Of a stretch of DNA of 10,992 bases, positions 723-9,783 are shown piece by piece. How positions within the stretch are numbered: position 1 is the first letter of the stretch; every line of letters starts with the position of its first letter. The notes under the pieces were generated by a model. That model ran no database searches. It had not been told where the DNA came from and saw only the letters and a list, made by a program, of their open reading frames with translations. Made by a program: the position numbers and the translations under genes. This stretch comes from Synergistaceae bacterium (GTDB lineage Bacteria > Synergistota > Synergistia > Synergistales > Synergistaceae): contig JAAYEY010000180.1 in NCBI GenBank assembly GCA_012728505.1, forward strand, positions 1-10,992. The letters run 5' to 3'.

Positions 723-2078
723 TTATATTCCGAGAATCAACTTAGCTGTTGTGAAATAGATCAAAAGTCCCGTTATATCTACAATAGTCGTCAGGACCGG
801 GGTGGCTACAAGTGCCGGGTCCAATTTCAACTTGGTCGCGCCTAAGGGCAGCAAAGCGCCCATAATAGTCGAAGATATTACCTGCAATCCAAGTGCCAGC
901 GAAATAGCGAATGCTATTTTTACCAATGAGAAACCATCCAGAACGCTAGATCCGCTGCCAAAGAAGAAAACCCGTCCGAACGCGATAGCTCCCAGAGGTA
1001 ACGACAGGAGCATCGCCACCCTGAACTCCCTTTCAAGAATACGGAGGACATCTTTTGTAGAAATTTCTTTAAGAGCCAGAGCCCGGATCACCAAGGTGGC
1101 GGACTGGCTGCCGGTATTGCCTCCTGTGTCTGCCAACATTGGCATGAATGTCATCAGCACCGTAAACTGCATAAGGAGACCTTCAAAGCTCTGTACGATA
1201 TATCCGGATACGAGGCTCAGAATAGCCAGAGCAATTACCCAGGGATAGCGGTTCCTAAAATGGCTCCTTACTGACGTTTCCATGTACATAACATCCGCGG
1301 CCGGCGTCGCGACTGGGATGAATTTTATGTCCAGGGTCTGTTTTCGGGTGATTATGCCAACCAATACATCGTCATCATTTATAACCGGCATCGCTTTAAG
1401 ATCGTATTTCTCGATATTTTCGACTGCGTCTTCCTTTTTATCATCAACACGGGAGAATATGCTCACTGAACGCATAATGTCACCAACCTTATCGTCTCTC
1501 CGAGCAACAATGAGGTCCTTGAGAGAGACGAACCCGAGGAGTTTACTGTTTTCGTCCACCACGTATGCGCAATAAAGAGTATCTCTGTCAGGGGCAATTT
1601 CTCTCAGGCGCTCGATGGCCTGTGAGGTCGTCAGATGCTGTGACAATGACGCATAATCAGATGTCATCACTGCACCTGCACTGCCTTCCCGGTAGAGCGA
1701 CGAACGGCGAATGTCTTCCCTTTCAGCCTGCGCCAAAGCAGGCAGGACAGATTCATGTAGACTTTCCGGGAGCTGCTTAAGCAAATTATCCCGATTACCC
1801 AAAGACATTCCAGCTAGCAGGAAAGCGATCTCTTTACGGTTGAGATCACTGATAATTCTCACCTGAAGATCTTTATCCAAGTGAATAAAAATTTCTGAGC
1901 GCAGGAAAGTGTCCGCATGCTGGAGAATCATCCAAGCTTTATCGCTCGACAAAGCTGAAATCCACCCTGCAATTTCGGCGGGATGTCCGGATTTACTTAA
2001 ATCTCGAAGGATTTTTGAGTACCCCGTAACAAGCACATCTTCCAGCTCGGGGGCAAGGAGCAGATTTTTGTTTTTCAT
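723..2078 (-). CDS. mgtE: MgtE-family magnesium transporter
   Basis: 451-aa Mg2+ channel/transporter of the inner membrane, about the usual family length. Order: N-terminal MgtE_N helical domain (about 30-130), two CBS domains that sense cytoplasmic Mg2+ (about 135-255), then a pore domain with about five membrane segments (about 280-451). The pore signature is at residues 311-325 (F-M-P-M-L-A-D-T-G-G-N-T-G-S-Q). The conserved pore aspartate is probably D434 in TTIVDITG, preceded by LDPALVATP. The start was chosen at 2078 because GGAGGTGA lies 4 nt upstream (2090-2083); a start 12 codons further up would run through the SD itself. The leader has a small ORF and an SD-sequestering stem, pointing to translational control. 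A decayed second copy of the C-terminus lies at 8296-8403. Confidence 0.95.
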   Translation of the reverse strand: MKNKNLLLAPELEDVLVTGYSKILRDLSKSGHPAEIAGWISALSSDKAWMILQHADTFLRSEIFIHLDKDLQVRIISDLNRKEIAFLLAGMSLGNRDNLLKQLPESLHESVLPALAQAEREDIRRSSLYREGSAGAVMTSDYASLSQHLTTSQAIERLREIAPDRDTLYCAYVVDENSKLLGFVSLKDLIVARRDDKVGDIMRSVSIFSRVDDKKEDAVENIEKYDLKAMPVINDDDVLVGIITRKQTLDIKFIPVATPAADVMYMETSVRSHFRNRYPWVIALAILSLVSGYIVQSFEGLLMQFTVLMTFMPMLADTGGNTGSQSATLVIRALALKEISTKDVLRILEREFRVAMLLSLPLGAIAFGRVFFFGSGSSVLDGFSLVKIAFAISLALGLQVISSTIMGALLPLGATKLKLDPALVATPVLTTIVDITGLLIYFTTAKLILGI

Positions 2079-2079
2079 G

Positions 2080-2133
2080 GGTTCACCTCCATTCCGGCCG
2101 CGGCAGGAGGGCAAAGGCGGCCTGAGGTGAACC
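2080..2133 (-). promoter_or_regulatory. SD-sequestering stem-loop in the mgtE leader
   Basis: In the transcript, GGUUCACCUC (2133-2124) is the exact complement of GAGGUGAACC (2089-2080), which contains the mgtE Shine-Dalgarno sequence; the start codon follows 1 nt later. An inner helix, GGCCGC (2122-2117) with GCGGCC (2101-2096), closes a 15-nt loop. The 16 pairs, mostly GC, would hide the ribosome binding site. The 5' arm lies 6-15 nt downstream of the stop codon of the leader ORF, so a ribosome finishing that ORF would cover it. Pairing is read directly; the regulatory role is inferred. Confidence 0.75.
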
Positions 2134-2162
2134 GGCTGGTTATGCTAAGAGGCGAAGCCGGT
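2131..2162 (-). promoter_or_regulatory. Alternative stem overlapping the leader-ORF stop codon
   Basis: ACCGGCT (2162-2156) pairs perfectly with AGCCGGT (2137-2131), 7 bp, with the leader ORF stop (2142-2140) in its 18-nt loop. Its 3' arm shares three bases (2133-2131) with the outer end of the SD-sequestering stem, so the two stems compete at their edge. A further 5-bp hairpin, CGCGA / TCGCG (2198-2194 with 2183-2179), lies inside the small ORF. Mutually exclusive or stacked folding of these is plausible but not computed. Confidence 0.5.
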
Positions 2163-2277
2163 AATTCACATCACAAGTCGCGAAGCCCAAAGATCGCGGT
2201 CCCGGGTCTTCAGTTTCTTTTTGAGATAATTCCTGGGTTGTATAATGACAACTGTGACTGTTGTCCGATTCGCTCAT
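2140..2277 (-). CDS. Leader peptide (upstream ORF) of mgtE, 45 aa
   Basis: ATG at 2277 follows a perfect AGGAGG (2290-2285) with 7-nt spacing, one of the best ribosome sites in the window. The 45-aa product starts MSESDNSHSCHYTTQ, has an acidic/proline stretch ETEDPGP at residues 21-27, and ends DVNYRLRLLA. It has no signal peptide or membrane segment and I recognise no family. It ends 61 nt before the mgtE start and just before the anti-SD arm. Salmonella mgtA has a leader peptide, MgtL, with an EPDP-type stretch that makes ribosomes drop off in low Mg2+; the acidic/proline run here recalls that by analogy only. It could also be a decayed gene, but the strong SD and position argue for function. 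Confidence 0.6.
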   Translation of the reverse strand: MSESDNSHSCHYTTQELSQKETEDPGPRSLGFATCDVNYRLRLLA

Positions 2278-2339
2278 AACCAAACCTCCTTTTAAATTAT
2301 CCATGCATGAGTTCATAGACCTCACTCAAGCTTTCTTCA

Positions 2340-2367
2340 AGTGTACCAATTTGGCAGAGAAAGTCAA
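2340..2367 (-). promoter_or_regulatory. Predicted sigma-70 promoter for the mgtE leader
   Basis: TTGACT (2367-2362) and TACACT (2345-2340) are separated by 16 nt. Transcription would start near 2333, giving a leader of about 255 nt that contains the small ORF and the stems. Repeat copy B begins only 15 bp upstream of the -35. Confidence 0.6.
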
Positions 2368-5995: not shown

Positions 5996-6844
5996 CTACC
6001 TTCTATCTTTCGCGCTGTCGGCAAACAGGAGCCAGCGTTCAGCCTCTTCCTTGTTCCCCGCAGCTTCAAAGGCCTTCGCACAGTTTCTGCTTGCGCGCGC
6101 ATAGTATTGATTACGACCGAAACGATTTTCTATGTTTGTTGCAGCACGTTTATAATATTCCGCAGCCTCCGCAAAATTGCCAAGCATGTACTCTAGCTGG
6201 CCGCGTGTCGCAAGCATACTGTCCACGTGCGGGTCTCCCTGAAGTGTAGCAAAGATCGCCTCAGATTTTTCCAAGTTTTCTCTGCCCTCATCAAATTTTT
6301 TCTGTGCTATGAGGCATATTGCAAGGTTGGCATGACACGTGGCAATTTCTGACTGCACATCTTCTATCTTCTCAAGCAGCGTGAGAGACTTCGCAAAACA
6401 TTCTCCCGCCCTCGTCACGTCGTTTGTAAGTAGCAGAGACTGAGCCATGTTGTTGTATAGAGCAGCAAAGTGGTAATCGCCCTCCGGAAGCTGTTCGGCA
6501 TATATCTCCTCTACACTATCATAAAGCTTAAGAGCCTCCGCCGCTTCTCCAAACGCAGACTTTGCAGTGGCATAGTTCAAAAGCGTGGTAGCATGCCCTA
6601 TGCCTCCCTCCAATCCGCAGGAGGAGATAAGACCAAGCGCCGTCTCCGCGGCCGTATAGCTCTTTTCCTTCTGTCCGGCAACACGCCAGAATCCCTCGAG
6701 CTCGTTGAAGACAGTTATGGCCGAGGTGCTGTCGCCCTCTTTGGCAAACAGTTCAGCCTTATTCTCAAGATAATCGACCGCATCCTGCATCTGCCCTTGC
6801 GCAAGCATTTCATCGAATTTATGAAGTATATTTTTTAAGTCCAT
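5996..6844 (-). CDS. Tetratricopeptide repeat protein
   Basis: 282-aa, almost wholly helical protein with about six TPR-like pairs, near residues 41-74, 84-117, 125-158, 167-200, 208-241 and 249-278; the clearest are AALYNNMAQSLLLTNDVTRA (127-146) and ATCHANLAICLIAQKKFDEG (168-187). There is no signal peptide or extra domain, so it is probably a cytoplasmic scaffold or binding protein. First intact gene of the operon; ATG at 6844 follows AAAGGGATGG. It ends 4 nt before the DUF4037 start. The fixed gene order suggests it works with the DUF4037 and DUF4125 products, but the partner is not shown by the sequence. Confidence 0.85.
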   Translation of the reverse strand: MDLKNILHKFDEMLAQGQMQDAVDYLENKAELFAKEGDSTSAITVFNELEGFWRVAGQKEKSYTAAETALGLISSCGLEGGIGHATTLLNYATAKSAFGEAAEALKLYDSVEEIYAEQLPEGDYHFAALYNNMAQSLLLTNDVTRAGECFAKSLTLLEKIEDVQSEIATCHANLAICLIAQKKFDEGRENLEKSEAIFATLQGDPHVDSMLATRGQLEYMLGNFAEAAEYYKRAATNIENRFGRNQYYARASRNCAKAFEAAGNKEEAERWLLFADSAKDRR

Positions 6845-8295: not shown

Positions 8296-8403
8296 TTAAA
8301 TTCCTAAAATTGTTTTGGCTGTTGTGAAATAAATGAACAGACCGGTTGTGTCGACAATAATTATCAAGACTAAGGTCGATACTGACGTCGGTTCTAATGT
8401 TAA
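8296..8403 (-). pseudogene. C-terminal fragment of a second mgtE
   Basis: The 35 codons before the TAA at 8298-8296 align without gaps to the last 35 residues of the MgtE at 723-2078; 24 match, including IVD-TG and IYFTTAK-ILGI. The pore motif is damaged: LDPALVATP is LEPTSVSTL here and TT before IVD is II. The fragment starts directly after the phosphoesterase stop codon and in the same frame, so it is the stump of a former mgtE cut at that point. It lies in the leader of amt. Confidence 0.85.
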
Positions 8404-9783
8404 TTAAAAACCGGAGAGCTCTGCGGAGTCCATCTCCGTAATGCTTCCGTCTGTGGCGTAGCGATACAGCCCAACGTGTCGCTCATGCCTTCGAGGAACG
8501 ATAACAACGAATGTCATAGGACAACGGTTCTTGTCAATCCAAGTACCTGAGTTAGCGTAGATAGCTTTCAGTCCATCGTGTGTGTCTGAGGTGATTATTC
8601 TCGGTTCGTGAGAATGGCCGAAGACAACAATTCGCTTGTCAGAATCAGGGTTCTGAAAGTACTGGACATTCGCCTGTTCGTCTGTTTCGGCCGCCGAACT
8701 CGCTCCGATCAACGCCTTTCTCACTGGAATTCTGACGGCCACGTTGTTAAGAACCTGTCGTTCGTCCCAGTTCTCCAGTATCCCCTTAAAAAGATTCATC
8801 TCGATCGGGGCGCCCACATTCGCCTGCCGTGGGAAGAGGTCACTCATTGCATACGTTTCGGTGAAGCCGTCGATATTCGTCTTGATAATCTTTTCTTTGA
8901 AGCCCTGCCTTATCGGTAGTTCGTTCATCAACTCGTTCCATGTTTTCCAGTAGATATACGTAAGTTCTTGACTCTCACCAAGGGAGTTAGGAACTATAGT
9001 CGGTCTCGAGGTTCCCTGCTTCGGCATTCCTTCCATCACAGACGTCGTGGCAATACGTGTAAAGAAATACCCCGGAGGCGAGATGGCACCGGGAATAATG
9101 GCACTGTTCGAAAGGGGATCCGGCGCACAAAAGAAGTTATATCGGTGTCCATGCTCGATAGCAATCTCTGGGCGATTGTCGGGGGTATAAGTTCCCAGCC
9201 CCTGCACGTCTCGCGCCTGCGATATTCCGGGCATAATGCTTTGGACGTTCTCAGCGGTAATCAGTAGGTCGTGATTACCGGGAACATAGGTCAGTTTAAT
9301 CTTTCCGTCCCTAATGATGTCGTTGAAAGCGTCAATCACGTTTTTATTGTTCTTAGCGATGGACTGCACGAATTCCTTCTGGCTCTTCCCACGATAGGTA
9401 TCCCTGTCCACAGGAACGAACCACTCGTCGAGCAGGTCGCCCGCTATGACAAGCTCCTTCACGTTCGGAGCGAGTCGGAGCTTGCGGAGGAAGTTGGTGA
9501 GAGGACCGCGATTCTTTTGAATCTCCGCATACTCGTCGTCCGCACCGAGATGGATATCGCTGATGCAAACTATTATAGAGCGTTCGCTGCCAAGCCCCTT
9601 AATACCGCCCTGGTCGAGCGTAAAGGGGTATTTCGAGGCCACACCGCTCCCCTGAGCGCAGACGGCTGTTTCCTGCGGAGAACCCAGAGCCTTCTCGTTC
9701 ATTGTGCTGCGGGCGGAGCACTCAGGCACACTGAATATAAGGATCGAAAAAAGCAGTATGGTTAGTAGTTTCAATCTTTTCAT
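8404..9783 (-). CDS. Secreted calcineurin-like metallophosphoesterase
   Basis: 459-aa exported phosphoesterase. All five motifs of the calcineurin-like family are present: D76 and H78 in SDIHLG, D116 in AGDLLDEW, N170-H171 in PGNHD, H211 in EHGHRYNFF, and H390/H392 in FGHSHEP; together they bind a two-metal centre. Residues 1-24 form a signal peptide (MKRLK, hydrophobic core, then VPECSA). The start at 9783 was chosen over one 14 codons upstream because of this peptide and the AAAGGAAA SD just upstream. The GDLLDEW motif recalls LpxH-type enzymes, but the signal peptide and length do not fit LpxH; the substrate is unknown. The insert between the GNHD/H211 region and GHSH (about 220-385) is long. 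Its promoter lies in block P2. Its stop codon touches the mgtE remnant. Confidence 0.9.
   Translation of the reverse strand: MKRLKLLTILLFSILIFSVPECSARSTMNEKALGSPQETAVCAQGSGVASKYPFTLDQGGIKGLGSERSIIVCISDIHLGADDEYAEIQKNRGPLTNFLRKLRLAPNVKELVIAGDLLDEWFVPVDRDTYRGKSQKEFVQSIAKNNKNVIDAFNDIIRDGKIKLTYVPGNHDLLITAENVQSIMPGISQARDVQGLGTYTPDNRPEIAIEHGHRYNFFCAPDPLSNSAIIPGAISPPGYFFTRIATTSVMEGMPKQGTSRPTIVPNSLGESQELTYIYWKTWNELMNELPIRQGFKEKIIKTNIDGFTETYAMSDLFPRQANVGAPIEMNLFKGILENWDERQVLNNVAVRIPVRKALIGASSAAETDEQANVQYFQNPDSDKRIVVFGHSHEPRIITSDTHDGLKAIYANSGTWIDKNRCPMTFVVIVPRRHERHVGLYRYATDGSITEMDSAELSGF

Follow-up and report, generated by a model that had tools for sequence, protein, structure and literature searches.

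A conserved leader with an upstream reading frame and a Shine-Dalgarno hairpin before magnesium importer genes of distant bacteria

What controls the Mg2+ channel gene mgtE in the Synergistaceae bacterium whose contig JAAYEY010000180.1 (assembly GCA_012728505.1) carries it on the minus strand of a stretch of 10,992 nucleotides (nt), here called the window? An initial annotation, made from the sequence alone, had proposed a leader in which a small reading frame is coupled to a stem that hides the Shine-Dalgarno (SD) sequence of mgtE. Comparison with other bacteria shows that such a leader, consisting of an upstream open reading frame (uORF) and an SD hairpin, is conserved before mgtE and before mgtA, the gene of a P-type ATPase that likewise imports Mg2+. 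It rather probably is a Mg2+-responsive translational attenuator in which pausing or drop-off of the ribosome turns the importer ON and run-through turns it OFF; the response to Mg2+ and the direction of the switch are what we infer. The parts of the locus are these:

2367-2340, minus strand: promoter-like TTGACT-16-TACACT, matching the consensus at 9/12 positions, not above chance
2290-2285, minus strand: AGGAGG, ribosome-binding site of the uORF by sequence, 7 nt 5´ of the ATG at 2277
2277-2140, minus strand: uORF MSESDNSHSCHYTTQELSQKETEDPGPRSLGFATCDVNYRLRLLA, 45 codons and a TAA at 2142-2140, supported by coding tests
2263-2271, minus strand: uORF codons 3-5 (E-S-D), the acidic start; early D/E are common in leader uORFs
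2197-2208, minus strand: uORF codons 24-27 (D-P-G-P), proposed pause or drop-off site; a D/E-P-G-like motif recurs in leader uORFs
2156-2181, minus strand: E1, putative SD mimic in uORF codons 33-41 and alternative partner of E2, from duplex swaps and the fold of a transcript ending at E2 with the RNA 5´ of E1 masked
2117-2135, minus strand: E2, anti-SD arm CCGGTTCACCTCAGGCCGC, from covariation with E3 and E1 and a covariance model match
2080-2101, minus strand: E3, SD-side arm of the hairpin, GCGGCC..GGAGGTGAACC, with the SD at 2090-2086, from its pairing with E2
2078-723, minus strand: mgtE, Mg2+ channel, with MgtE_N, CBS and MgtE domains (Pfam PF03448, PF00571 and PF01769)

The mgtE product scores 307.9 bits in TIGR00400, against a cut-off of 232.75. 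The elements from which the initial annotation had argued are present: the 45-codon frame with its perfect AGGAGG; the arm GGTTCACCTC (2133-2124), a perfect 10-base complement of GAGGTGAACC (2089-2080) in the mgtE SD region; an inner GC helix of GGCCGC (2122-2117) and GCGGCC (2101-2096); and a competing stem, ACCGGCT (2162-2156) with AGCCGGT (2137-2131), that can form. Its promoter exists as a site, yet such sites are in no excess (2 in the scanned stretch vs 1.2 expected), and the complete 261-nt leader folds with an unremarkable energy (z -1.09; 25 of 200 shuffles equal or better). Because neither is unusual, the case rests on comparison.

The upstream reading frame and its spread

Of 185 genomes of the host phylum, only that of the window was found to carry the uORF, while an mgtE-like or CBS match was obtained in 32 of 60 related genomes. 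The hairpin was made into a covariance model (R1), trained on 36 mgtE and 5 mgtA leaders; it matches the window, itself a training member, at 2152-2076 with 66.4 bits, and at E <= 0.1 it found nothing in 21 related mgtE loci (L008 had one opposite-strand match at 0.23). The non-conservation that the host phylum alone would suggest is overturned by leaders found in distant phyla, and the mgtE of the window was probably acquired by transfer, unless the contig is misbinned. Conservation in relatives, one of the checks proposed with the initial annotation, is thus nearly absent close by and present farther away: the uORF coupled to an SD-hiding stem recurs in distant phyla, where the stem covaries.

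A protein search with the window uORF alone returned two nearly identical proteins. Close relatives of the mgtE protein exist outside the host phylum (80 of 234 confirmed places kept, 40-61% identity; mgtE starts called in 77 of the 80 loci), and in all 89 leaders were gathered, namely those of the 80 loci, the window, L120 and L122-L128. The leader occurs at many of these distant loci in the order SD, uORF of typically 41-48 codons, stop, hairpin and importer ATG. The uORF begins with the consensus MxDSDGSHSC, usually contains D/E-D-P-G-P and has A-A-G-x-V-N codons near its 3´ end; in relatives, CCGGTTCACCTCCGGCCGC ... GCGGCCG ... GGAGGTGAACC-ATG follows the stop. Carriers matching R1 are titled Desulfobacterota/Deltaproteobacteria, Planctomycetota, UBP14, Fermentibacteria, Zixiibacteriota, Kiritimatiellae, BRC1, Spirochaetes, Hydrogenedentota, Victivallales, CSSED10-310, Aminicenantes, Poribacteria and Clostridiales, taxa taken from record titles of mostly metagenome-assembled genomes, so that single labels may be wrong.

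The element is scattered among bacteria, not universal. A uORF profile matched 1 of 199 genomes in the phylum of a carrier titled Phycisphaerales (G204, locus L037), this being the known L039 genome. R1 matched 2 of 247 genomes in the phylum of one titled Spirochaetes (G188, L047), with the mgtA leader L164 found there, and 2 of 337 in that of one titled Victivallales (G202, L054), where it found the mgtE leader L178; one match in each pair was the seed genome. Short uORFs of Ignavibacteria (L083, L086), of which one from Ignavibacterium begins MHDSDEPGAK..., had no R1 match.

The 9-mer GAnCCnGGn occurs 70-135 nt upstream in 28 of 78 mgtE-clade leaders, preceded in 18 by an SD and ATG; the other 10, lacking these by the rule used, are left out of the frame test. 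In 17 of the 18 the site is in frame and open (binomial p 1e-7; the miss is L106), and the distance from the ATG takes eight values between 6 and 72 nt, all multiples of three. BLOSUM62 scores per codon are 2.31 in frame vs 0.86 and 0.79 out of frame for the N-terminal block (19 sequences), and 3.05 vs 0.65 and 1.20 for the DPG block (28 sequences), with block substitutions most frequent at codon position 3. Judged by these comparisons, the reading frame is under coding selection and the uORF has the signature of a protein-coding one.

These results bear on a quite improbable alternative, a metal-binding riboswitch aptamer that merely contains a reading frame and whose conserved blocks would bind Mg2+ or another ligand and control E1, E2 and E3 directly. 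The biased codons of the blocks AGT-CAY-AGT-TGC and GAC-CCT-GGA-CCG would suit it, as would the mgtE motif of Thioalkalivibrio, presented as a riboswitch candidate (PMC11109978). An aptamer does not account for frame agreement in 17 of 18 leaders over such varied distances, nor for the coding pattern of substitutions, and no Rfam family matches the leader. Serine codons 7 and 9 are always AGT where they encode Ser (22 sequences), and the P-G-P-R codons are biased across leaders (Pro CCT in 14/25, Gly GGA in 13/20, Arg CGA in 6/7). A hairpin in the first uORF codons (GGCA/TGCC) pairs in 16-19 of 22 sequences and shows few double changes.

At least two D/E among residues 2-6 are found in 33 of 40 mgtE-leader uORFs and 6 of 7 mgtA-leader uORFs, the D/E share of these residues being 39% and 37%, respectively, vs 10% and 15% in the rest. 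A D/E-P-G-like motif occurs in 31 of the 40 and 6 of the 7. The seven were picked from 13 mgtA leaders for a usable start, leaving out L126, L128, L132, L142, L149 and L162. In the window TEDPGP (2214-2197, minus strand) is reminiscent of D-x-E-x-N-P-G-P, with which viral 2A StopGo peptides end; we presume this to be coincidence.

Two partners for one RNA arm

Pairing was analysed in an alignment of 41 of the 89 leaders (36 mgtE, 5 mgtA). Between E2 and E3, 88.1% of cells are paired and 14 of 17 pairs show changes on both sides; none of 500 shuffles reaches the observed value of any of five measures. When the partner is slid by one base, pairing is about halved (36-55% of cells), and 7-12 pairs with double changes are kept, so that the share of paired cells separates the true register better. 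RNAalifold, unaided, predicts 7 of the E2:E3 pairs. In 78 unselected mgtE leaders the best SD helix has 7.19 Watson-Crick pairs on average vs 5.15 in shuffles.

E2 also matches its own E1. Own E1:E2 duplexes average -21.0 kcal/mol, vs -18.2 when E1 is exchanged among leaders (p 5e-5, the lowest value attainable with 20,000 permutations), own E2:E3 duplexes -26.0 vs -21.2, and a control made of the 78 nt next upstream -14.6 vs -14.2 (p 0.13). Against shuffled E1, p <= 0.05 was reached in 18 of 41 leaders, and in 1 of 41 for the upstream control. By covariation, then, E2 has two mutually exclusive partners, the SD side (E3) and the 3´ codons of the uORF (E1). Because own E1:E2 duplexes beat swapped and shuffled ones while the upstream control is null, the A-A-G-x-V-N codons look largely RNA-constrained, and would constitute an SD mimic within the reading frame. 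As arranged, the hairpin suggests control at the level of translation.

A second importer family behind the same leader

The uORF profile A1 was built from 21 uORFs of mgtE leaders only. In whole genomes of 20 carriers it matched exactly once in 18, in each case at the mgtE leader; since 17 of these 18 had supplied seeds of the profile, the result mainly shows absence of a second copy. Among 297 genomes (phylum of G190) 13 had a match: four before mgtE (the seeds L118, L119 and L121, and L120, which is new), seven before mgtA, none of them a seed, and two (L129, L130) inside long open frames with neither importer gene nearby, apparently by chance. The best NCBIfam family of the P-type ATPase behind the seven leaders is TIGR01524, magnesium-translocating P-type ATPase, with 406-552 bits on fragments of 387-497 residues, short of the 610.75 required for the full-length protein. 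Because no mgtA leader went into A1, these seven leaders are an independent result.

In the same 297 genomes R1 found 19 sites with E <= 1e-4, each of them preceding either mgtE (9) or mgtA (10); 11 are training leaders. Twelve of 22 weaker sites were inspected, and L156 alone among them is an mgtE leader. From a sample of 326 genomes, largely shared with this set, came the mgtA leader L173, the training mgtE leader L174, and L175. In eight carrier genomes R1 matched six at the training leader, one not at all, and G942 elsewhere. Over the R1 scans of the 297 and 326 genomes, the eight carriers and the phyla of the Spirochaetes and Victivallales carriers, 13 sites with E <= 1e-4 are not training members: 4 before mgtE, 7 before mgtA and 2 before neither. 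As far as profile and covariance searches can tell, one leader type precedes two non-homologous Mg2+ importers, mgtE and mgtA. This supports the link to Mg2+ that the initial annotation had proposed, because the two importers are unrelated.

Several mgtA loci deserve description. The genome G198 holds both an mgtE leader and an mgtA leader; the latter (L162) has a uORF-like start that stops after about 10 codons (MNDSPGSLIA) and keeps the hairpin. In L173 a stretch like the N-terminus of MgtE lies between leader and mgtA (14 of 33 residues identical to that of L039, E 2.6e-7 among 78 sequences), as if mgtA had taken the place of mgtE behind the same leader. The mgtA leaders L122-L126, L132, L142, L149 and L173 have an extra short non-mgtA frame at the hidden SD, with mgtA farther down; that of L123 is hydrophobic and starts with ATT. 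The mgtA leader in L164 (1624-1764, minus strand) has the uORF MNDSDGSHRC...NSEDPLPRRF, to which the proteins P0026 and P0030 are similar.

Ribosome position, known leaders and outlook

The attenuator that we favour would work as follows. At low Mg2+ the early acidic codons and the D-P-G-P block would destabilise or slow the ribosome. The last codon of D-P-G-P begins about 18 nt before E1, so that the edge of a ribosome paused there would fall shortly before E1. Transcribed ahead of E3, E1 could then capture E2, and the importer SD would stay free (ON). With sufficient Mg2+ the ribosome would elongate across E1, E2 would pair with E3, and translation of mgtE would be blocked (OFF). The choice would be made during transcription.

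The geometry of the leaders is compatible with such a pause. From 38 uORFs read, 25 spacings between the codon after P-G and the first paired E1 base were obtained; 18 are 17-21 nt and 10 are exactly 18 nt. The seven outside this range are those of the window, L040, L043, L045, L049, L052 and L075, with the values of L040, L049 and L075 off since the pattern met an earlier proline; the 17 nt of L063 likewise derives from a wrong motif. In the window the spacing is 18 nt by the fold of the E2-ended transcript. A ribosome with the glycine codon in the P site and the next codon in the A site would end about 5 nt before E1.

This spacing fits a stalled ribosome in general, and is suggestive of a SecM-like stall at the conserved proline codon. 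Nascent-chain arrest at PG|P without drop-off, triggered by something other than Mg2+, such as proline supply or EF-P, and likewise leaving E1 free and the gene ON, would draw on it, and on the reported effect of EF-P on the MgtL prolines in Salmonella. We think it unlikely: all 19 R1 places at E <= 1e-4 in the 297 genomes precede Mg2+ importers, and a P-G-like motif is absent from 9 of the 40 mgtE-leader uORFs.

Ribosome positions were modelled by masked folding in the 28 leaders with a PG-like motif. At equilibrium the SD is mostly paired in all four states of the full leader, with no switch; its mean probability of being unpaired is 0.15 in the free leader, 0.12 with the ribosome at PG|P, 0.12 on E1 and 0.18 at the stop codon, where L037 (0.56) and L045 (0.71) are exceptions. 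Because equilibrium leaves the SD mostly paired in every state folded, the switch would have to be kinetic, that is, co-transcriptional. In transcripts ending at E2, mean pairing of E2 with the 3´ part of the uORF is 0.49 when free; masking the PG|P footprint raises it to 0.63, and masking all RNA through that footprint to 0.75. It is 0.085 with a ribosome on E1 and 0.385 with E1 shuffled. For the window the last two values are 0.00 and 0.43.

The same calculations speak to the direction proposed in the initial annotation, translational coupling in which a ribosome finishing the uORF sits on the anti-SD arm, melts the hairpin and turns mgtE ON, drop-off leaving it OFF. Such a ribosome would be near, the distance from the first stop-codon base of the uORF to E2 being 6-18 nt and mgtE starting 45-72 nt past the stop in the leaders used, and the E1:E2 pairing of the window is weak unless upstream RNA is masked. 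With its footprint at the stop, however, the ribosome reaches no farther than the initial bases of the anti-SD arm and does not free the SD: masking that footprint gives the same value for the window as the free leader (0.18), and the means differ little (0.18 vs 0.15). Coupling would also leave the covarying SD mimic E1 without a role, and appears improbable, whereas opening of mgtE by pausing or drop-off would make sense of the conserved mimic.

Several results weigh against a pause-driven attenuator. Full-leader equilibrium folding shows no switch, and the SD of the window is unpaired with a probability of 0.18 in all four states. Before E3 is made, its E1:E2 pairing is 0.00 in the free transcript, becomes 0.03 when no more than the PG|P footprint is masked, and reaches 0.86 solely when all upstream RNA is masked as well; in this model it would need that RNA cleared, for instance under following ribosomes. 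Our confidence is slightly lowered because these values are near zero without upstream masking. The duplex places E1 at 12 nt, beyond the 17-21 range. Among the 40 mgtE-leader uORFs, 9 lack the D/E-P-G-like motif and 7 lack two early acidic residues. The 41 aligned leaders were selected for a recognisable hairpin; in unselected mgtE leaders the SD helix reaches p <= 0.05 in 35 of 78, compared with 1 of 13 other mgtE genes of the host order. At the mgtE start R1 matches in 37 of the 80 loci, of which 34 had served for its training, and its places in L175 (E 1.4e-6) and L172 (E 9e-6; the only match in G942) precede neither importer gene. In L039, CAG replaces the usual TAG/TAA stop, and the frame runs beyond the mgtE start.

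The surroundings hold further features. No Rfam family reaches its gathering score anywhere in the window. Rfam searches of the window and eight relatives gave no leader match at E <= 1, in line with the absence of an M-box in the initial annotation; the only matches in these nine loci at that threshold are fluoride riboswitches away from the leader, lying near mgtE in two distant carriers (L037:1828-1895; L051:4423-4501 and 6508-6577). At 8299-8418 (minus strand) the window has a relic of a second mgtE C-terminus, spanning residues 412-451 at 63% identity with one stop, directly before an ammonium-transporter gene. A short repeat (...TGTGTAGGTCTGACCCC...), presumably of the REP (repetitive extragenic palindromic) type, lies at 2383-2420, just 5´ of the leader, at 1-38 and 226-253, and recurs in C101 and C144, contigs of the genome to which the window belongs.

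In attenuators of the erm and SecM type, the position of a ribosome on a leader reading frame selects between alternative stems, one of which hides an SD; their signals, peptides and genes differ from those of the present leader. Its nearest counterparts are the enteric Mg2+ leaders. In MgtL of enteric mgtA, early acidic and proline codons lead to slow translation or drop-off that turns the importer ON (PMC11282234, PMC6460261, PMC11611912), acting through Rho-dependent transcription termination. MgtL of E. coli (17 amino acids) and the window leader alike have a short uORF with early acidic and proline codons (E3, D5 and D-P-G-P in the window) before a Mg2+ importer. The likeness noted in the initial annotation holds to this extent, and not in length (45 amino acids) or sequence: the window uORF is not a 17-residue alternating-proline peptide and shares only the acidic start and a P-x-P-R core. 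The present leader further differs by its SD-hiding hairpin and SD mimic within the uORF, and by its presence in many phyla before both mgtE and mgtA. R1 found nothing at E <= 1 in the region of E. coli mgtA, and the peptide in L164, a Spirochaetota mgtA leader with the shared N-terminus, contains EDPLPRR, close to PLPRRR of MgtL.

In the Salmonella mgtCBRU operon, mgtQ is a uORF of 8 amino acids before mgtB with Asp/Glu codons, at which drop-off frees the ribosome-binding site; a ribosome on region 1 is stated to favour stem 2:3 (PMC8092293). Likened by description, with sequences not compared, both leaders have mutually exclusive stem-loops of which the last hides the ribosome-binding site of the transporter, and mgtQ differs in its size and its intergenic position in an operon. 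In our leader, covariation likewise places the transporter ribosome-binding site in a stem, with an exclusive upstream pairing that involves the uORF. By analogy, the proposed switch would share the ON-by-drop-off logic published for MgtL and mgtQ. Among mgtE leaders, the M-box (ykoK) Mg2+ riboswitch precedes mgtE in mycobacteria (PMC12810186), whereas no Rfam model matches the leader described here. The Thioalkalivibrio motif SRC-65-1, a riboswitch candidate with 32 representatives in one genus, has SD and AUG at the base of its stem P4, with covariation (Narunsky 2024, PMC11109978); compared by description only, it is another mgtE leader, and the parts of that paper at hand mention no uORF. 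Among the open-licence PMC papers that literature searches listed, no title or abstract describes the present leader, this motif being the closest.

A broader view, which we hold tentatively, is that of an ancient, transferable family of leader peptides in about a dozen phyla, with the ribosome as Mg2+ sensor for both MgtE and MgtA; MgtL would be a shortened relative or convergent twin, linked by EDPLPRR, and the Thioalkalivibrio candidate may be the same element, misread. Leader uORFs of this kind account for some of the short 'hypothetical proteins' that precede Mg2+ transporter genes, and the leader offers a model of a three-arm switch together with a new candidate pause motif, D/E-D-P-G-P. 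Translational control of Mg2+ uptake by leader peptides is already known from enteric bacteria. If our model is true, ribosome-based sensing of Mg2+ would be a widespread principle, realised with a different peptide and a translational hairpin, in distant phyla and for two non-homologous importers.

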